Assembly: GCA_001805655.1 (NCBI GenBank)
Contig: MHGR01000082.1
Coordinates: 11,815 to 17,056 of the forward strand
From: Omnitrophica WOR_2 bacterium RIFCSPHIGHO2_02_FULL_52_10
Lineage (GTDB): Bacteria > Omnitrophota > Gorgyraeia > Zapsychrales > Zapsychraceae
Direction: 5' to 3'
Length of the DNA stretch: 5,242 nucleotides
This document shows, piece by piece, positions 2-5,211 of the stretch. How positions within the stretch are numbered: the stretch's first letter is position 1; each line of letters opens with the position of its first letter. A program made the position numbers and the translations under genes. The notes beneath the pieces were generated by a model. That model was not told where the DNA came from and ran no database searches. It was given only the letters and a program-made list of their open reading frames with translations.

Positions 2-898
2 CAGCATAAGTTCGGCGTGCGCCAGCGGGCGATGTTGTCGGAAAAGGGCAACAATCCGGATATCCTGATTATGACGGCGACACCGATTCCCCGGACTTTG
101 TGCATCACGCTGTACGGCGATTTGGACGTCTCCATCATTGATGAGATGCCCCCCGGGCGCGGCAAAGTCGATACCCTGCTGTACACGCAAGAGCAGGCCG
201 GGGAGGCGTATGCGCTGATCCGCACAAGCGCGTCCGAAGGGCGGCAGGTCTACGTGGTCTATCCGATCATCGAAGAATCGGCGAAAACGGACCTCAAAGC
301 CGCGAAGGCGATGTACAAGCATTTCGCTGCGGAGGAATTCAAGGACTTGCGCATCGGGCTGGTGCACGGTCAGATGAAACCGAAAGAAAGCCAAGCGGTC
401 ATGCGGGCTTTTGTGAATAAGGAGATTGATATTTTGGTGGCCACGACGGTGATTGAGGTCGGGGTCGACGTGCCCAACGCCAGCGTCATGGTCATTGAGC
501 ACGCCGAGCGGTTCGGCCTGGCCCAGTTGCATCAGTTGCGCGGGCGCATAGGCCGCGGGGAAACGGACGGATTATGCGTCCTCATTGCCGACCCGCAGAC
601 CAGCGAATCGGACGAGCGGCTGAAGGCGATTTGCTCGACGGACAACGGTTTTGAAATCGCCCAGCGTGATCTGGAGATCCGGGGGCCCGGGCGGTTTTTC
701 GGCCGCCATCAGCACGGCCTGAACGAATTGAAGGTGGCCAACCCGCTCACTCAGCTGGACCTCCTGGAGCTGGCCCGGAAGGAGGCCCTGGCTTTAGTGG
801 AGGTGGATCCCAAGCTGGCGCAAAATGCCAACAAGCGGATTAAAGAGATCATCCAAAAGAGGTATCCCACGTACTTGAGGGATGTGAAGGCCGGTTGA
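2..898 (+). CDS. recG: ATP-dependent DNA helicase RecG, 3' part (5' end outside window)
   Basis: RecG is a superfamily 2 helicase that remodels stalled replication forks and Holliday junctions in the cytoplasm. The 298 residues present are the C-terminal part; the reading frame is open to the window edge, so the N-terminal wedge domain and Walker A motif lie outside. The fragment opens with QHKFGVRQR, the second half of the DEQH-type motif II. Visible motifs, in fragment numbering, are TATPIPRTL (25-33, motif III), VHGQM (121-125), ATTVIEVGVDVPNA (147-160, motif V), QLHQLRGRIGRG (175-186, motif VI with arginine finger region) and the C-terminal RGPGRFFGRHQHGL (227-240). This last motif normally reads close to GPGE(F/L)xGTxQxG, so two positions carry arginine here. 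An internal GTG at 17 is not a real start because homology continues upstream. TGA at 896-898 is followed within five bases by a heptamer repeat. Identity is secure. Confidence 0.96.
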   Translation, partial: QHKFGVRQRAMLSEKGNNPDILIMTATPIPRTLCITLYGDLDVSIIDEMPPGRGKVDTLLYTQEQAGEAYALIRTSASEGRQVYVVYPIIEESAKTDLKAAKAMYKHFAAEEFKDLRIGLVHGQMKPKESQAVMRAFVNKEIDILVATTVIEVGVDVPNASVMVIEHAERFGLAQLHQLRGRIGRGETDGLCVLIADPQTSESDERLKAICSTDNGFEIAQRDLEIRGPGRFFGRHQHGLNELKVANPLTQLDLLELARKEALALVEVDPKLAQNANKRIKEIIQKRYPTYLRDVKAG

Positions 899-902
899 TG
901 TT

Positions 903-956
903 CGTGAAGCGTTAAGCGTGAAGTGTATCTCGTACGCTTCACGTTTCACGCTTCAC
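903..956. repeat. Heptamer inverted repeat, family A (GTGAAGC/GCTTCAC), recG-rsmD gap
   Basis: Three tandem heptamers (CGTGAAG, CGTTAAG, CGTGAAG at 903-923) face three complementary ones (ACGCTTC, ACGTTTC, ACGCTTC at 934-954). Arms 904-925 and 935-956 pair over 22 positions, with 19 Watson-Crick pairs, two G-U pairs and one mismatch, around a 9-base loop. A smaller palindrome, AATTTC-AC-GAAATT (957-970), abuts it just before the rsmD start. There is no U-run after the stem, so this does not look like an intrinsic terminator. The function is not known to me; a role as an mRNA processing or stability element, or as a passive repeat, is inference. Confidence 0.9.
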
Positions 957-971
957 AATTTCACGAAATTT

Positions 972-1538
972 ATGAAAATTATCGGCGGAAAATTCAAGGG
1001 CCGCAACTTTTACATGCCCGCGGGAATGCGTCCGACCCGGAACATTGTGCGCGAGGCGGTGTTTGATATCTTGGGCCGGGACCTGTCCGGACTGGCTGTT
1101 TTGGACCTTTTTGCCGGCAGCGGTGCGGTGGGTCTTGAGGCGGTTTCGCATGGCGCGCAAAAGGTCGTTTTGGTCGAAAAAGACCCCAAATACGCGGAGG
1201 TGATTGAGGAAAATTTCAGGCTCTTGCCGCTCGAAAGGGACGCGCAGGGCGGCCTGCCCTATGAAATCATGCAGACGGATGTCTTTGCGGCCGTGAAGTT
1301 TTTGGCCGGACGGGGCAAAAAGTTTGACACGATCTTCATTGACCCTCCGTATAGTCGGGGGTTGGCAAAAAAAGCCTTGAAAACTCTGGGGGCCTATGAT
1401 ATATTACAGCCCAATTGCGTGGTTTTTATTCAGCACGACACAAGGGAAATTCTACCGGAACAGGAAGGTAGAATTGTTCTTTTTAGGCAGCGGAAATACG
1501 GCAATACATATTTATCGATGTATAAGGTTAGTGTTTAG
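972..1538 (+). CDS. rsmD: 16S rRNA (guanine(966)-N(2))-methyltransferase RsmD
   Basis: RsmD uses S-adenosylmethionine to methylate G966 (E. coli numbering) of 16S rRNA during assembly of the small subunit. The 188-residue protein has the usual family length. It begins MKIIGGKFKGR, a typical RsmD N-terminus. It then shows RPTR (20-23), the SAM-binding loop DLFAGSGAVGLEA (45-57), the acidic VEKD (68-71), the catalytic IDPPY (123-127, family form (D/N)PPY) and the C-terminal RKYGNTYLS (174-182). The frame is open further upstream to a GTG at 918, but that stretch encodes the heptamer repeat, so ATG 972 is preferred. No clear Shine-Dalgarno precedes it. It lies 73 bases after recG and 96 before coaD, the latter being its frequent partner in bacteria. 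A promoter-like sequence and a terminator-like hairpin lie inside its 3' third. Confidence 0.95.
   Translation: MKIIGGKFKGRNFYMPAGMRPTRNIVREAVFDILGRDLSGLAVLDLFAGSGAVGLEAVSHGAQKVVLVEKDPKYAEVIEENFRLLPLERDAQGGLPYEIMQTDVFAAVKFLAGRGKKFDTIFIDPPYSRGLAKKALKTLGAYDILQPNCVVFIQHDTREILPEQEGRIVLFRQRKYGNTYLSMYKVSV
1377..1405 (+). promoter_or_regulatory. Candidate sigma-70-type promoter inside rsmD, upstream of coaD
   Basis: TTGAAA (1377-1382) and TATATT (1400-1405) are separated by exactly 17 bases, each one base off the consensus. A TGA precedes the -10 box, giving the extended -10 form TGnTAtatT. Transcription would start near 1411-1413, giving a leader of about 220 bases for coaD. The match lies in protein-coding sequence (rsmD residues about 136-145) and could be chance. 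The housekeeping sigma preference of this organism is assumed. Confidence 0.35.
1448..1484 (+). terminator. Terminator-like hairpin inside rsmD
   Basis: AATTCTACC (1448-1456) and GGTAGAATT (1467-1475) are perfect 9-base complementary arms around a 10-base loop. They are followed after one base by TTCTTTTT (1477-1484). The geometry resembles an intrinsic terminator, but the stem is AT-rich (four GC pairs) and lies within the rsmD coding sequence, which must be read through to make the protein. Weak terminator, attenuator or chance are all possible. Confidence 0.3.
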
Positions 1539-1602
1539 GCAGCAGGCCATGGATACGAGGGAGTAACGGGGATTCGGCTGATGAGCGGTTATTGCCTAAC
1601 AC
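1531..1602. repeat. Imperfect inverted repeat spanning the rsmD stop and rsmD-coaD gap
   Basis: GTGTTTAGGCA (1531-1541, containing the rsmD TAG stop) is complementary to TGCCTAACAC (1593-1602) apart from one extra T, leaving a loop of about 51 bases. A short GTTAT (1589-1593) / ATAAC (1611-1615) pair is a competing fold. This gap (1539-1634) is the only one in the window without heptamer repeats. Nothing else was recognised in it. The arms are short, so chance cannot be excluded. Confidence 0.35.
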
Positions 1603-1634
1603 TTGCGACCATAACGGTTTAAAACGGAAAAACC

Positions 1635-2129
1635 ATGAGCCGATCTGCGATCTATCCGGGGAGTTTTGATCCCGTGACCCGCGGGCATATTGATCTTATC
1701 CAGAGGGCTTCCCACATCTTTGATCAGATCATTGTCGCGGTCGCGGAAAGCACGCAGAAAAACACGCTCTTCAGCACAAAGGAGCGCGTGGCCCTGGTCG
1801 AAAAGGCCGCGGCTGGCATCAAGAATGTCCGCGTGGAGAGCTTCAAGGGCCTGGTCATCGATTACGCGCGCCGCAAGAAAATCAACGTCCTGATCCGCGG
1901 CGTGCGCATGGTTTCGGATTTTGAGTATGAGCTGCAAATGGCGCTGACCAACCGCCGTCTCGCCGCGGATATCGAAACGGTCTTTCTTATGCCTTCCGAG
2001 GGGAATTCATTTCTTTCTTCGACCTTGATCAAGGAGGCCGCTTCGCTGGGGGCGGACGTGACCTCATTCGTGCCGGATTTTGTCGCGCAGCAGTTGAACA
2101 AGAAATTAAGGATAAAACGTGAAGCGTGA
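1635..2129 (+). CDS. coaD: Pantetheine-phosphate adenylyltransferase CoaD (PPAT)
   Basis: CoaD transfers AMP from ATP to 4'-phosphopantetheine, giving dephospho-CoA and pyrophosphate, the penultimate step of coenzyme A synthesis in the cytoplasm. The 164 residues match the usual length of about 160. Seen are AIYPGSFDPVTRGHIDLI (5-22), with the nucleotidyltransferase (T/H)xGH motif as TRGH (15-18), RGVR (89-92 region), the conserved SDFEYELQMALTNR (94-107), and the C-terminal FLSSTLIKEAASLGADVTSFVP (126-147), matching the SSSLVKE signature. ATG 1635 is supported by family alignment at the N-terminus. The ribosome-binding site is weak (CGGAA near 1625-1629). The last three residues (R-E-A) and the TGA are written by the first heptamers of the downstream repeat. 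CoaD supplies the CoA used by the fab genes further down, although this placement next to rsmD is common in any case. Confidence 0.97.
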   Translation: MSRSAIYPGSFDPVTRGHIDLIQRASHIFDQIIVAVAESTQKNTLFSTKERVALVEKAAAGIKNVRVESFKGLVIDYARRKKINVLIRGVRMVSDFEYELQMALTNRRLAADIETVFLMPSEGNSFLSSTLIKEAASLGADVTSFVPDFVAQQLNKKLRIKREA

Positions 2130-2184
2130 AGCGGGGGACGATGGACGCTTCACGAGATGCCTGCCTGCCGGCAGGCGCTTCACG
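2118..2184. repeat. Heptamer inverted repeat, family A, coaD-DUF177 junction
   Basis: Two tandem CGTGAAG heptamers (2118-2124, 2125-2131) are followed by two separate complementary copies CGCTTCACG (2146-2154 and 2176-2184). CGTGAAGCG (2125-2133) pairs perfectly over 9 bases with 2146-2154 around a 12-base loop, or alternatively with the distal copy 2176-2184. The words are the same as in the recG-rsmD gap. The left end overlaps the coaD coding end. Between the two right-hand copies lies a separate GC-rich palindrome. Confidence 0.88.
2163..2176. repeat. Perfect 14-bp GC-rich palindrome nested in the heptamer repeat
   Basis: GCCTGCCGGCAGGC (2163-2176) is its own reverse complement, preceded by a further GCCT (2159-2162). 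The word differs completely from the surrounding CGTGAAG repeat and separates two CGCTTCACG copies, as if one repeat unit had been inserted into or next to another. Similar CCTGCCGGCAGG words recur in my memory of uncultured bacterial genomes, but I cannot verify this here. Confidence 0.8.
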
Positions 2185-2190
2185 ATTTGC

Positions 2191-2194
2191 GGAG
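2191..2194 (+). promoter_or_regulatory. Ribosome binding site deciding the DUF177 start
   Basis: GGAG lies 7 bases before ATG 2202. It supports that start over the in-frame ATG at 2157, which falls inside the repeat. Confidence 0.7.
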
Positions 2195-2201
2195 TGACAT
2201 C

Positions 2202-2645
2202 ATGAAAGTGTTTGTCCATAAAATCGGGCTGGAAGGCATGAAGCTGGAGCAAACGTTGCCTGCCGACGCAATCGGTTTGTCGGGGGCGGATGACGTCCGG
2301 CTCATCGCGCCGATTGACATAAAGACCGAGGTGTTCAAAGGCGAAGACGAGATGATCGCGAAGGTGGCCGCGGTCAGCCGGTATGAATCATTTTGCGGGC
2401 GGTGCCTGGAGACGGTCAAGCGGGACTGGAGCACCGCGTTCACGCTGGCCTTTGATATTGACGGCACGACGGACTTTATCGAGATAGACGAGGACATCCG
2501 CCAGGAGCTTATTCTCAACCTTCCGTTTCGTATCCTCTGCCGGGAGGATTGCAGGGGATTATGCGTCGAATGCGGCGCGAATCTGAATGATGAACGGTGC
2601 GCTTGCGCGGTGAGGGCAGCCAAGCCAGAGAAGGCAAAAATATAA
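2202..2645 (+). CDS. yceD: DUF177 / YceD family protein (ribosome or 23S rRNA accumulation factor)
   Basis: The 147-residue protein belongs to the DUF177/YceD family, genetically linked in bacteria and plastids to 23S rRNA accumulation; its biochemical activity is not settled. The start at 2202 follows a good GGAG and removes 15 residues that would be translated repeat. Visible features are a mixed N-terminal half, a central FCGRC pair (C65, C68), the acidic stretch DFIEIDEDIRQELILNLPFRILC (91-113), which matches the family's conserved (D)E.IRE.ilL.lP core, and the C-terminal cysteine-rich signature CREDCRGLCVECGANLN (113-129) followed by CAC (133-135). The eight cysteines suggest metal binding. 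It sits directly before rpmF, the standard neighbour of this family, which strengthens the call. The stop overlaps a TATAAT sequence. Confidence 0.9.
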   Translation: MKVFVHKIGLEGMKLEQTLPADAIGLSGADDVRLIAPIDIKTEVFKGEDEMIAKVAAVSRYESFCGRCLETVKRDWSTAFTLAFDIDGTTDFIEIDEDIRQELILNLPFRILCREDCRGLCVECGANLNDERCACAVRAAKPEKAKI

Positions 2646-2646
2646 T
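2641..2646 (+). promoter_or_regulatory. Possible -10 box (TATAAT) at the end of DUF177
   Basis: A perfect TATAAT (2641-2646) overlaps the DUF177 stop, upstream of rpmF. No recognisable -35 box lies 16-18 bases upstream and there is no extended -10 TG, so this is weak. If used, transcripts would begin near 2653 and carry the family B hairpin in the rpmF leader. Confidence 0.2.
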
Positions 2647-2657
2647 AGACATGATGA

Positions 2658-2725
2658 CGCCGGATTCCAGATGCCGGATCCCAGGTGGTGAATCCAGCAT
2701 CTGGCATCAAGCATCCAGCATCTCA
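2658..2725. repeat. Heptamer inverted repeat, family B (CATCCAG-type), DUF177-rpmF gap
   Basis: The right side is a clean run of heptamers AATCCAG, CATCTGG, CATCAAG, CATCCAG, CATCTCA (2691-2725). The left side carries diverged complements (CGCCGGA, TTCCAGA, TGCCGGA at 2658-2678). Arms 2659-2679 and 2692-2712 pair at 17 of 21 positions around a 12-base loop (2680-2691). A TTTT at 2727-2730 follows the repeat at a distance. The consensus CATCNRG is shared with the plsX-fabH gap. Confidence 0.88.
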
Positions 2726-2737
2726 ATTTTACACGAC

Positions 2738-2743
2738 AAGGAG
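2738..2743 (+). promoter_or_regulatory. Ribosome binding site of rpmF
   Basis: AAGGAG lies 7 bases before ATG 2751, the strongest Shine-Dalgarno in the window. It selects 2751 over the out-of-frame ATG at 2747, which meets TGA almost at once. Confidence 0.85.
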
Positions 2744-2750
2744 CGCATGA

Positions 2751-2951
2751 ATGCCTAACCCAAAACGCCAACATTCCCGTCAGCGGCAGCGCAAACGAAG
2801 GACGCATTATAAAACAGCCGTCCCCAATTTCGCGTCTTGCCCGCATTGCCATAAACCGATCCTTTCTCACCGGGTATGCCCGTTTTGCGGGTATTACAAG
2901 GGAAAACCGGTTGTCGAGATTGAAGCACAAGAACCGTCAGAAACAGCATAA
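2751..2951 (+). CDS. rpmF: 50S ribosomal protein L32 (bL32), zinc-ribbon form
   Basis: bL32 is a small structural protein of the large ribosomal subunit. The 66 residues begin MPNPKRQHSRQRQRKRRTHYK, the conserved basic N-terminal tail (family pattern MAVPKrK.S..rr..RR.h). A four-cysteine zinc ribbon follows, CPHC (30-33) and CPFC (43-46), then GYYKGKPVV (47-55), the usual end of the domain. A short acidic tail (EIEAQEPSETA) follows. All four zinc ligands are present, so this is the zinc-dependent (C+) form and not the cysteine-free paralogue. Its position between DUF177 and plsX is the classic arrangement. Confidence 0.97.
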   Translation: MPNPKRQHSRQRQRKRRTHYKTAVPNFASCPHCHKPILSHRVCPFCGYYKGKPVVEIEAQEPSETA

Positions 2952-2971
2952 GTTTTAGATAAGCAAGCCTG

Positions 2972-3024
2972 CAGTTGTCAGTCTTCAGTCATCAGCTGAT
3001 GACTGAAAGCTGATGGCTGAAAGC
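2972..3024. repeat. Heptamer inverted repeat, family C (TCAGTC-type) with perfect 24-bp palindrome, rpmF-plsX gap
   Basis: Seven consecutive heptamers can be read: TGTCAGT, CTTCAGT, CATCAGC, TGATGAC, TGAAAGC, TGATGGC, TGAAAGC (2976-3024). The two halves 2972-2995 and 2996-3019 are complementary with 19 Watson-Crick pairs, four G-U pairs and one mismatch of 24. The centre 2984-3007 is a perfect 24-bp palindrome. The heptamer register then runs directly into the G tract before plsX. Confidence 0.92.
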
Positions 3025-3025
3025 T

Positions 3026-3035
3026 GGGGGGGGGG
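3026..3035 (+). promoter_or_regulatory. G10 homopolymer in the plsX ribosome-binding position
   Basis: Ten consecutive G residues end 8 bases before the TTG start of plsX, where a Shine-Dalgarno would normally lie; no AGGAGG-like alternative is present. The tract may serve as a poor G-rich ribosome binding site. Its length could vary by slippage, or the run could be miscounted in assembly. Confidence 0.55.
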
Positions 3036-3043
3036 TACTCAAC

Positions 3044-4030
3044 TTGAAAATTGCCGTCGATGCCATGGGAGGTGATTACGCGCCGCAATCGATCGTTGCC
3101 GGCGCGGTGGACGCCGTTAAGGAGTTCAGCGTTCCCCTCACTTTAGTCGGCATCGAGAGCGAAGTCCAGGCCGAATTAAAGAAGTTCGATTATCCGCAGC
3201 GCCTCATCGAAATCGTTCACGCGCCCACGGTCGTGGAGATGGACGAGCCCGCCACCGCCAGCATCCGCAGGAAGAAAGACTCTTCGATTTCCGTCGGCGT
3301 CAGCCTGCTGAAAGAGCAAAAATGCGACGCCTTCGTCAGCGCCGGCAATACCGGCGCCGTCGTGGCCGCCTCGTCCTTCGTTTTGGGCATGCTCGAGGGG
3401 GTGGAGCGGCCGGCCATCGGCCTGGTGATTCCGACCCTCAAGGATTTTGCCTTTTTGATCGACGTCGGCGCGAACACCGAGCCGAAACCGGAGCATCTCT
3501 TCCAGTCGGCGCTCATGGCGCGCGTCTATGTCAAAGATGTGCTCGATGTGAACAATCCCACGGTCGGGCTGTTGAACATCGGCGCGGAGGCCGGCAAAGG
3601 CAGCGTGTTCATCAAGGAAGTGTACAAGATGATCGAGGGCCGCGTTGAAAACTTCATCGGGAACGTGGAGGCCAGTGATATTTTCAAGGGGAAGCATGAC
3701 TGCATTATCTGTGACGGCGTGATGGGGAACATCGTGATTAAGATTTCCCAGGGATTGATGGAGTCGGCCTCGGCGCTGATGCGCCGGGAAGTCAGTAAAA
3801 GCCCCGTTGCCATGTTCGGGGCGGCGATCATGCGGTCCCGGCTGAATCATATTAAAAAACTGGCGGATTATTCCGAATACGGAGGGGCGCCGCTTTTAGG
3901 CGTTAACGGTTTGGTCATGATCAGCCACGGGCGGTCGAGCCCGAAAGCCATTAAGAACGCCATTAAGGCCGCGATCCGTGAAATCGAGCACAATATCCTC
4001 GCTGTGATGAAAGAAGAGATTTCTAGATAG
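3044..4030 (+). CDS. plsX: Phosphate acyltransferase PlsX
   Basis: PlsX converts acyl-ACP and phosphate to acyl-phosphate, the donor used by PlsY to acylate glycerol-3-phosphate; it acts peripherally at the inner membrane. The 328 residues match the usual 320-350. The start is TTG: the encoded MKIAVDAMGGDYAP is the canonical N-terminus, and the next Met (residue 8) lies inside the conserved AMGGD. Further signatures are SAGNTGA (99-105), DVGANTEPKPEHL (140-152), VGLLNIGAEAGKG (174-186), GNVEASDIF (206-214), CDGVMGNIVIK (223-233), GGAPLLGVNGL (280-290) and HGRSSPKAI (295-303). ANTE replaces the more common ANVD. It lies 92 bases after rpmF and 102 before fabH, the conserved order; a rare start plus a G-tract instead of a clear ribosome binding site suggests modest translation. 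Confidence 0.97.
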   Translation: MKIAVDAMGGDYAPQSIVAGAVDAVKEFSVPLTLVGIESEVQAELKKFDYPQRLIEIVHAPTVVEMDEPATASIRRKKDSSISVGVSLLKEQKCDAFVSAGNTGAVVAASSFVLGMLEGVERPAIGLVIPTLKDFAFLIDVGANTEPKPEHLFQSALMARVYVKDVLDVNNPTVGLLNIGAEAGKGSVFIKEVYKMIEGRVENFIGNVEASDIFKGKHDCIICDGVMGNIVIKISQGLMESASALMRREVSKSPVAMFGAAIMRSRLNHIKKLADYSEYGGAPLLGVNGLVMISHGRSSPKAIKNAIKAAIREIEHNILAVMKEEISR

Positions 4031-4051
4031 GCGTTCCCTAACCTGAAATAA

Positions 4052-4113
4052 TGCTTGATGCTGGATGCCTGATTGAACCATCTAGCATCCGGCATCTGGT
4101 ATCCAGCATCAAA
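4052..4113. repeat. Heptamer inverted repeat, family B, plsX-fabH gap
   Basis: Left heptamers TGCTTGA, TGCTGGA, TGCCTGA (4052-4072) face CATCTAG, CATCCGG, CATCTGG, TATCCAG, CATCAAA (4079-4113). TTGATGCTGGAT (4055-4066) and ATCCAGCATCAA (4101-4112) pair perfectly over 12 bases. The stem extends to 4073/4094 with one G-U and one mismatch, around a 20-base loop. The words are those of the DUF177-rpmF gap, about 1.4 kb upstream. Confidence 0.92.
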
Positions 4114-4121
4114 ATTATATC

Positions 4122-4126
4122 AAGGA
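4122..4126 (+). promoter_or_regulatory. Ribosome binding site deciding the fabH start
   Basis: AAGGA lies 6 bases before ATG 4133. It rules out the in-frame TTG at 4073, which would translate the repeat. Confidence 0.75.
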
Positions 4127-4132
4127 CATTCC

Positions 4133-5110
4133 ATGAGCAACGTGGGCATCATCGGCCTCGGCCATTATCTTCCGAAGAAAAAACTCACCAACGCCGATCT
4201 TGAAAAACTCGTCGACACAAGCGACGAATGGATCATCACGCGCACCGGCATCCGGGAGAGGCGCGTGGCCGGGCGAAAAGAGCGCACCAGCGACCTCGCC
4301 GTCCGGTCCGCCCGCCAGGCCCTCAGCGATGCTAAGCTTGATCCCGCCGGCCTGGATTTGATTATCGTCGCGACCATTTCCCCCGACAGCAATTTCCCAT
4401 CGGTCGCCTGCCTGGTGCAAAAAGCGTTGCGCGCGGACAACGCCGCCGCGTTCGACATCAGCGCGGCCTGTTCGGGCTTTCTTTACGCCCTGACGACGGC
4501 GAAGCAATTCATCCTCAGCGGCTTGTACCGCAACGCCCTGGTCATCGCCGCGGAGAAAATCACCAATTTTATCGACTGGAACGACCGCAGCACCTGCATC
4601 CTTTTCGGTGACGGGGCCGGGGCGTGTGTCCTGTCCAAGGTCAAGGGGCCGCGGGGAATTATTTCCGATTACATGCATGCCCAGGGACGTTTCGGGGATT
4701 TGATGATGGTAAAATCGGCGGACCGCGAACCCCTCGATCAGAAGACGAAAACCATGCAGGCGCCCCGCATCGCGATGCAGGGCAAGGAGCTGTTCAAGGT
4801 GGCGGTTAACTCAATGGCCGACGCGGCGACCGTCGCCGTCCAAAAAGCCGGGATGAAGCTGGACGACATCGATTGCGTCGTGCCCCATCAGGCGAACGAC
4901 CGCATCATCGCCGCGGTGGCGAAAAAACTGGGTCTGCCCAAGAGTAAGATTTTTGTCAATATTGACAAGTACGGAAATATGTCGGCGGCGTCCATCGCGG
5001 TCGCCCTTTATGAAGCCGTGAAACAAAAGAAGATCAAGCGCGGCAGCAATGTCGTCTTGGTCACCTTCGGCGCGGGGCTGGTCTCGGCGGCGAATGTGGT
5101 GAAGTGGTAG
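4133..5110 (+). CDS. fabH: Beta-ketoacyl-ACP synthase III (FabH)
   Basis: FabH condenses a short acyl-CoA, usually acetyl-CoA, with malonyl-ACP to start type II fatty acid synthesis in the cytosol. The 325-residue thiolase-fold protein has the family's usual length. The catalytic triad is complete: C113 in DISAACSGF (108-116), H252 in PHQAN (251-255) and N282 in YGNMSAAS (280-287). Other signatures are the N-terminal GLGHYLPKKKLTN (8-20), the substrate-pocket region DTSDEWIITRTGIRERR (28-44) and LFGDGAGACVL (157-167). The C-terminal loop FGAGLVSAA (312-320) differs from the usual FG(A/G)GxTWGA, and GNM replaces the common GNT. The start is set by AAGGA and the standard N-terminus. Upstream plsX and the likely downstream fabD complete the conserved cluster. 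Acyl-CoA preference cannot be read from the sequence. Confidence 0.97.
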   Translation: MSNVGIIGLGHYLPKKKLTNADLEKLVDTSDEWIITRTGIRERRVAGRKERTSDLAVRSARQALSDAKLDPAGLDLIIVATISPDSNFPSVACLVQKALRADNAAAFDISAACSGFLYALTTAKQFILSGLYRNALVIAAEKITNFIDWNDRSTCILFGDGAGACVLSKVKGPRGIISDYMHAQGRFGDLMMVKSADREPLDQKTKTMQAPRIAMQGKELFKVAVNSMADAATVAVQKAGMKLDDIDCVVPHQANDRIIAAVAKKLGLPKSKIFVNIDKYGNMSAASIAVALYEAVKQKKIKRGSNVVLVTFGAGLVSAANVVKW

Positions 5111-5112
5111 AA

Positions 5113-5203
5113 ATCAGTGGTCAGCTGTCAGTGTTCAGCGGTCAGTCGTTGGTTTCAGATGATAGAGAGCTGTAAAAAATCCCCCTGGTTGACCACTGAT
5201 CAC
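5113..5203. repeat. Heptamer inverted repeat, family C, fabH-fabD gap
   Basis: Five heptamers of the form NTCAGNN (ATCAGTG, GTCAGCT, GTCAGTG, TTCAGCG, GTCAGTC; 5113-5147) are answered by TGACCAC, TGATCAC (5190-5203). ATCAGTGGTCA (5113-5123) and TGACCACTGAT (5190-5200) are perfect 11-base complements. The intervening 66 bases include the left heptamers, an A6 run (5174-5179) and a C5 run (5181-5185). The loop is much longer than in the other gaps. No promoter or terminator was recognised. Confidence 0.85.
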
Positions 5204-5211
5204 TGCTTCCC

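Follow-up and report, generated by a model that had tools for sequence, protein, structure and literature searches.

The window analysed here, a stretch of 5,242 nucleotides from the Omnitrophica WOR_2 bacterium RIFCSPHIGHO2_02_FULL_52_10, raises the question of what the hairpins built of tandem seven-base words are that occupy six of the seven gaps between its genes, and how they came to be there. The window belongs to a 1.56-Mb metagenome-assembled genome (MAG) of 137 contigs that is 76% complete (G000); it is compared chiefly with two relatives, G007 from the same family and G031 from the same genus as G007. The elements are real, genome-wide, rule-bound, and fast-changing: they share an anatomy, are dispersed, lie mainly between co-oriented genes, follow a word grammar, are exchanged for other words or missing in the same gaps of sister species, and occur in phage operons. 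Those of the window are discrete hairpins in which each arm comprises roughly four words of seven bases and a few further bases, and the reading preferred here, whose chances are put a little short of even, is that they are small non-autonomous mobile elements served by a putative mobiliser.

Self-matching at a lag of seven bases was compared with that of dinucleotide shuffles of each gap. From 5' to 3', the lag-7 self-match (with the number of shuffles per 1000 that match it in brackets) is 0.49 (0) for recG-rsmD, 0.31 (106) for rsmD-coaD, 0.47 (0) for coaD-yceD, 0.44 (0) for yceD-rpmF, 0.46 (0) for rpmF-plsX, 0.43 (0) for plsX-fabH, and 0.39 (2) for fabH-fabD. With the gaps summed, lags 7 and 14 give 0.42 and 0.41, and the remaining lags from 2 to 21 give 0.19 to 0.32, the highest of these at lag 21. 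Six of the seven gaps are periodic beyond chance and rsmD-coaD is the exception, exactly as an earlier reading of this DNA (the sequence-only reading) had claimed, and shuffled sequence does not reproduce the periodicity of the six. That reading also called the period strict; the spacing is indeed kept while the words change, but relatives contain octamer families as well. Arrays with a core GTCAC and three free bases form the same type of hairpin in G028 and G007 (L234, L163, L176), so that period 8 exists beside period 7. Arrays with a period of about 9 and words like TTGAGTTTA, with facing inverted copies between co-oriented genes, are found in L040 (rpmF-plsX) and L183.

Stems had been predicted for all six gaps. 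Facing arms are complementary over 24 nt at 88% in recG-rsmD, 30 nt at 77% in rpmF-plsX, and 19 nt at 89% in plsX-fabH, and four of the six hairpins clearly out-fold their shuffles as RNA (z from -4.0 to -8.8, Table 1), for which the prediction stands; yceD-rpmF and fabH-fabD fold weakly, with 24 and 8 of 200 shuffles, respectively, being as stable, and the exceptional rsmD-coaD gap has a z of +0.6. A search of the window against Rfam yields no matches at the gathering score.

Elements were called as lag-7 or lag-14 arrays together with hairpins having periodic arms, N being masked; this automatic caller recovers five of the six window elements and misses the coaD-yceD hairpin. Its yield is 34 elements from G000 (40 stretches, 552 kb), 62 from G007 (20 stretches, 318 kb), and 70 from G031 (55 stretches, 507 kb); these densities are upper estimates because 5, 11, and 15 of these stretches, respectively, were chosen by hits (pattern, family, or BLAST). 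Lags 5, 6, 8, 9, 10, and 11 give 2, 16, 9, 16, 4, and 9 in G000, and other lags give 5 to 16 in G007 and 8 to 27 in G031; the first 15 stretches of G031 hold 40 elements in 159 kb and the other 40 hold 30 in 348 kb. Counted in this way over the genome and its relatives, the arrays are dispersed and not confined to the window locus. The window is nevertheless a hot spot, since the mean rate of G000 predicts 0.3 elements there. About ten word families are distinguished by eye in G000. Relatives differ in density: 20-kb samples of G001, G005, and G006 lack elements altogether, and 13 kb of G014 carry nine. Of 145 genomes of the phylum, 5 have the exact pattern TCAGTGNTCAGTGNTCAG and 12 have its reversed control, at up to 41 places in a genome, and because the reversed word is present in more genomes the word of TCAGTGNTCAGTGNTCAG is not special in the phylum. 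The reversed control seems to be a heptamer array used by other lineages; GACTNGT stands in tandem at 41 places in G071 and 33 in G100 and is a word family of its own. Like arrays are found in named loci of Nitrospirae, Nitrospinota, Deltaproteobacteria, and Natroniella. A groundwater contig of Deltaproteobacteria (L126) has near-perfect heptamer arrays of many words, by eye mostly of four or five units.

The genomic positions of all 166 elements of G000, G007, and G031 were assessed against genes from our own codon-usage gene caller. Co-oriented gaps hold 133 of them, convergent gaps 5, and divergent gaps 1; 22 lie within called genes, some of which are probably false calls, and 5 at contig edges. 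The position between co-oriented genes, which the earlier reading described for one probable operon, is shared by 133 of 139 intergenic elements, most gap length being co-oriented anyway, and the window itself is an operon from recG to fabH with all genes on the plus strand. For divergent gaps the single element observed compares with about 16.7 expected by gap length, elements removed. For more than half of the elements in co-oriented gaps (76 of 133), the distance from the upstream stop codon to the start of the element is at most 10 nt. A TTTT run within 10 nt 3' of the hairpin follows only 4 of 101 hairpins, and the elements are therefore unlike intrinsic terminators.

The arrays follow rules of length, of position within the word, and of polarity. 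Counted without regard to family, array length peaks at 4.5 units in G000 (12 of 29), G007 (28 of 67), G031 (34 of 85), named loci (18 of 68), and viral contigs (73 of 179); in the same order, arrays of 4.0 units number 3, 7, 9, 9, and 13 and arrays of 5.0 units number 1, 4, 5, 3, and 9. At 3.5 units there is a further peak, which stands out in G000, G007, and viral contigs but is slight in G031 and named loci. Exact runs of the AG...TC core with three, four, and five units number 8, 17, and 2 in G007, 0, 10, and 2 in G031, 7, 8, and 1 in G000, and 35, 52, and 10 in viral contigs, as compared with 2, 3, 0, and 1 runs of four for the reversed core in these sets. Runs of AGT..TA likewise peak at four (3, 5, and 0 in G007; 2, 9, and 2 in G031). 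Within the word, mismatch is unevenly distributed: in AGTGGTC arms of G007 its frequencies from the first to the seventh position are 0.03, 0.00, 0.17, 0.08, 0.47, 0.12, and 0.00. The shape is shared by G000, G007, and viral contigs, with variation of 41-54% at position 5 as compared with 0-6% at positions 2 and 7. Each of the ten family-by-set tables that have 8 arms or more is non-uniform (p from 5e-6 to 1.5e-57, overstated because bases are treated as independent). The degeneracy of the words is therefore not random decay. As for polarity, 57 of 58 arm pairs from three families and five genomes have the word first and its reverse complement second, a count in which some AGTCGTA elements appear again under TCGTATC. 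In IMG/VR the TCAG hairpin is word-first in 24 stretches and reversed in 2, or 23 matches and none when periodic arms are required, at least 4 pairs of these rows being identical in letters; the TGAA hairpin is word-first in 2 and reversed in none.

The contents of a given gap change rapidly between relatives. The words of the plsX-fabH gap are GATGCTG in G000, AGTCGTA in G007, TCGTATC in G028, and AGTCGTC/AGACTTC in G023, and the gap spans only 3 to 9 bases in G011, G013, and G024. For G007 and G031, 108 orthologues have a median protein identity of 92% and an identity at four-fold sites of 0.79. Among 64 co-oriented orthologous gaps of this pair, 55 are empty in both genomes, 5 carry differing families (their best 21 nt match at below 80%; one of these pairs may consist of related AGAC- words, and another has a weak array in G007), 2 hold the same family, and 2 are filled in G031 only, with 5 further gaps skipped for length or N; in other orientations 2 of 5 compared gaps are filled in G031 only and 2 were skipped. 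The remaining comparisons with G007 concern chosen element-rich stretches from which gaps above 300 bp or with N were dropped: 19 gaps of G023 (7 different, two of these pairs being borderline at 0.76, none the same, 3 and 4 one-sided, 5 empty), 16 of G028 (7 different, none the same, 2 and 2 one-sided, 5 empty), 9 of G029 (5 filled in G007 only, 4 empty), and 3 of G030 (1 the same, 2 empty). Gaps of 79-135 bp that contain an element in G031 or G023 measure -1 to 3 bp in G007. The sequence-only reading had treated absence from related strains as counting against it, and the outcome is mixed, relatives often having no element or other words in the same gap, which we read as turnover. At the end of contig C6 of G031 (L239), the end of plsX and the plsX-fabH element are near-identical to those of G007; this case was left out of the conserved elements, since the neighbouring end of plsX is identical as well and the scaffold then runs into N, and it is possibly a binning artefact or a recent transfer.

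Four of five inspected IMG/VR contigs with TCAG hairpins encode phage proteins, namely tape measure and tail terminator (L260), tape measure, tail, and tail assembly (L269), or portal and terminase (L261 and L276); the single protein tried from L275 has no PHROG match. The elements number 12 in 9.9 kb of L260, 11 in 12.9 kb of L269, 11 in 14.2 kb of L261, and 4 in 10.7 kb of L276, mostly between phage structural genes, densities that do not describe phages at large because the contigs were found by the hairpin pattern and that may pertain to free phage or prophage alike. Many gaps of the phage structural operons in L260, L261, and L269 are filled by a heptamer hairpin. Among plasmid carriers, a BLAST search with element 6, with the low-complexity filter on, gave no match.

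Under the preferred reading, a new element would enter a gap as a complete hairpin copied from a member of its own family, whereby word-first polarity would be kept, and the fixed word positions may be what the copying machinery, or a protein that it uses, recognises, leaving the rest free. Insertions would be survived in the interval from a stop codon to the following ribosome-binding site, phages could carry word families between hosts, and the apparent lack of a typical SbcD in the order might let DNA palindromes persist. The hairpin is predicted to be transcribed yet mostly passive in mRNA. A more sweeping version, conceivable but doubtful, holds that these are widespread mobile hairpins defined by grammar, with short cores, free spacers, about four words per arm, and the word first and its reverse complement second, that they travel among operon gaps in many phyla and in their phages, and that a putative enzyme reads the cores and writes fresh spacers.

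Several results weigh against mobility. No mobiliser, target duplication, or excision was found, and in 23 genomes element density is not tracked by Y1_Tnp (Spearman -0.36, p 0.09) or by RVT_1 (-0.07). The location between co-oriented genes may reflect survival rather than targeting. Strict TCGT... runs of the TCGTATC family have no peak at four (2, 1, and 2 runs of three, four, and five in G007; 7, 4, and 2 in G031), and the TAAG hairpin of IMG/VR lacks polarity (51 as compared with 52 stretches; 12 and 6 with periodic arms), so polarity is not supported as a general rule. Copies agree in word order only slightly better than shuffled ones (0.76 as compared with 0.74, and 0.83 with 0.79), and clear parent-daughter copies are therefore not seen. 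One shared element is identical at 90 of 93 sites, above the four-fold-site identities of 0.60 and 0.75 of its flanking genes, which hints at function, and one orthologous pair (L175/L400) differs by an in-place length change with the outer edge kept. Finally, the element-poor sister G029 is no different from its relatives in having no SbcD match. Across 55 genomes none has SbcD above the curated cut-off, with 9 weak matches of which the best is in G002 (6e-18); the corresponding numbers in 14 control genomes are 8 and 13. Loss of SbcCD was rejected as the cause of density differences, SbcD being below the cut-off in all 55 genomes, rich and poor relatives alike, and low SbcD may be a permissive background at most. 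A REP-associated tyrosine transposase (RAYT; REP, repetitive extragenic palindromic) or a reverse transcriptase was likewise rejected as the mobiliser, neither being associated with element density or presence; RVT_1 occurs in 13 of the 55 genomes, with none in G007, G011, G012, G014, G015, G028, G031, and G038.

The competing explanations rank, in descending order, as protein sites, slippage, RNA function, and REP elements moved by RAYT. Protein binding is rather unlikely, although it would account for much of the grammar: about five short cores per arm (for example TCAG), spaced by three free bases, would form facing rows that bind an oligomeric protein, a proposal made for the paired repeats of Geobacter metallireducens, with selection keeping cores and polarity. 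The fixed cores and hypervariable spacers are consistent with this, as are array lengths of a whole number plus about half a unit (core-spacer-core), the GTCAC octamers, the element conserved above its flanking synonymous sites, and the interpretation offered by the Geobacter authors themselves in the available portion of their paper (PMC2700814). The by-eye count of word families, however, would require many proteins in a single genome, and different families occupy the same gap of sister species and elements stand in phage structural operons too. An origin in situ, in which polymerase slippage and template switching build arrays and inverted copies at tolerant sites and nothing moves, is unlikely. 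Heptamers are reported to be the commonest long simple repeats in most surveyed genomes, for which slippage has been proposed (an older survey, as cited in the available portions of PMC4679880 and PMC4692102), and the L175/L400 length change is of the kind slippage could produce. Slippage is at odds with a length peak near 4.5 words in place of a decaying series (strict TCGTATC runs excepted), with fixed polarity, with an AGTGGTC variable position that is the same in two genera and viral contigs, with arms that are not copies of one another, and with full-length elements where the sister gap is closed.

A function in RNA, by which the transcribed hairpins would set mRNA stability, processing, or translational uncoupling of neighbouring genes, had been suggested by the sequence-only reading and is now quite improbable. 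Nearly all elements stand between co-oriented genes, many span from a stop codon to just before the next start, divergent gaps hold few, and four window hairpins fold better than shuffles, all of which agree with such a role. Selection for RNA pairing should favour G.U over A.C, yet the transcribed-strand stems of the 101 co-oriented-gap hairpins contain 112 G.U and 124 A.C (95% interval of the G.U share, 0.41-0.54), indicating that RNA pairing does not look selected. Two arms of the same element resemble each other more closely (0.84-0.89) than do arms taken from different elements (0.71-0.80), values for which families were lumped and arms picked as best hairpins, and variable positions show a pairing excess (0.59 as compared with 0.47) that is gone for the three bacteria when swaps are register-matched. 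In that test, within-element arms match at 0.565 of variable positions (244 of 432) and swapped arms, taken from the same family and genome at the best register, at 0.620, which the larger number of registers may inflate slightly; in the three bacteria each arm seems to be drawn independently from the words of its family. In viral contigs, which are of mixed genomes, the within-element match (0.618) exceeds the swapped one (0.533). Selection on an RNA stem is not supported by the G.U and swapped-arm tests, and the rarity of following T-runs and the emptiness of all nine compared gaps in G029, five of them filled in G007, also speak against an RNA function. That the elements are REP elements proper, moved by Y1-family RAYT transposases, is very improbable. 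They are palindromic, extragenic, and present in many copies, Y1_Tnp occurs in 43 of 55 genomes, elements adjoin one of the two Y1 genes of G000, and the GT(A/G)G head at element feet is somewhat above random in G007 (13% as compared with 6%). Against this, Y1_Tnp has no match in G014, G015, and G028 (MAGs 83-92% complete), all of which have elements; the head is at just 4 of 68, 16 of 124, and 12 of 140 feet (6-13%, as compared with 4-6% of random places); no Y1 gene of G000 lies between two elements, that on C53 having them on one side only and that on C115, a 5.7-kb contig, having none; and density tends down with Y1 number. Of the suggestion that the elements are REP-like and spread by a transposase, the RAYT route falls away and only likely mobility is retained.

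The features of the window are collected in Table 1. Its first gene, previously named mfd, is instead recG, as indicated by its Pfam domain. The nearest named relatives of plsX by identity are Omnitrophota, with Candidatus Zapsychrus exili at 73% followed by WOR_2 and other Omnitrophota bacteria. A second GC-rich palindrome (GCCTGCCTGCCGGCAGGC) at 2159-2176, within the 3' part of element 2, has the look of a nested insertion, and the 552 kb of G000 contain its core a single time. A run of ten G at 3026-3035 directly follows the rpmF-plsX hairpin, ahead of plsX, and is possibly a slippage tract or an assembly error.

Table 1. Genes and hairpin elements of the window, in window coordinates; z, RNA folding stability relative to shuffles.
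Feature	Position	Strand	Word	Details	z
Window	G000:C82:11815-17056				
recG, 3' part	2..898	+		Pfam RecG_dom3_C	
Element 1, recG-rsmD gap	903..961		GTGAAGC	arms 904-927 and 933-956	-8.8
rsmD	972..1538	+		Pfam Cons_hypoth95	
coaD	1635..2129	+		Pfam cytidylyltransferase-like	
Element 2, coaD-yceD gap	2115..2190		GTGAAGC	5' arm overlaps coaD stop codon 2127-2129	-4.4
yceD	2202..2645	+		Pfam	
Element 3, yceD-rpmF gap	2655..2724		ATCCAGC/GATGCYG	3' arm four words + ATC (count read from sequence)	-1.2
rpmF (ribosomal protein L32)	2751..2951	+		Pfam	
Element 4, rpmF-plsX gap	2966..3026		AGTYNTC	5' arm three words + AG; 3' arm CT + four words; no loop (count read from sequence)	-4.0
plsX	3044..4030	+		Pfam FA_synthesis	
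Element 5, plsX-fabH gap	4051..4112		GATGCTG	5' arm three words + GAT; 3' arm four words + ATC	-4.6
fabH	4133..5110	+		Pfam	
Element 6, fabH-fabD gap	5111..5206		AGTGGTC	5' arm four words + AG; 3' arm two words (count read from sequence)	-1.8
Putative fabD	start 5224			named from gene order alone	

Heptamer repeats have so far been noted in single species without a mechanism, and in open papers, judged by title and the start of the abstract, neither this class in Omnitrophota or phages nor its polarity and length rules were found described. Any genome can be measured for the rules seen here (number of units per array, which word positions are fixed or free, polarity, preferred gaps, word replacement, and occurrence in phage operons), and these tell slippage, RNA function, protein sites, and mobility apart. 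If an enzyme does copy hairpins with variable spacers, it would represent a new kind of DNA-writing activity; if the elements are protein sites, they would constitute a large unread regulatory layer. In cyanobacteria, the tandem heptanucleotides of Calothrix are named STRR, and small dispersed repeats are found inside tandem heptamers.

Known systems resemble the elements in part. According to the available portions of the papers concerned, heptameric simple sequence repeats comprise GGGAATC (GGGANTN) of Xanthomonas, which are heterogeneous heptamers with fixed and free positions and in the majority four units, GGGGA(T/C)T of Nostoc, and the tandem heptanucleotides of Calothrix cited there (PMC4692102), as well as TAACTGA of Beggiatoaceae (PMC4679880), and have been read as G-quadruplex or translation elements (PMC4692102, PMC4679880). 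The elements described here share with them tandem seven-base units over-represented between genes; the known repeats differ in being mostly direct arrays, with inverted pairs as examples, and in having one word family each. With REP/RAYT systems, as far as these are described in the available part of PMC2817692, the elements share short extragenic palindromes in many copies that are likely mobile, but their GT(A/G)G head is rare, they have no fixed sequence, no RAYT of G000 is flanked by two copies, and three genomes with elements have no Y1_Tnp match. The closest precedent is the set of paired tandem repeats of Geobacter metallireducens, again as described in the available portion of PMC2700814. 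Its classes 1 and 3 consist of four tandem octamers or five heptamers (consensus MTYCTGA), mostly paired and dispersed, with class 1 pairs on opposite strands and 24 and 8 pairs in one species; one class 3 pair separates proB from proA, at a site occupied in G. sulfurreducens by another multicopy sequence, and the paired repeats are termed 'predicted global regulator binding sites' (PMC2700814). Common to both are four or five tandem units of 7 or 8 bases (strict TCGTATC runs excepted) and two sites on opposite strands at a variable distance, whereas the elements described here differ in having many word families per genome under a common grammar, a polarity, turnover between sister species, and a presence in phage operons.

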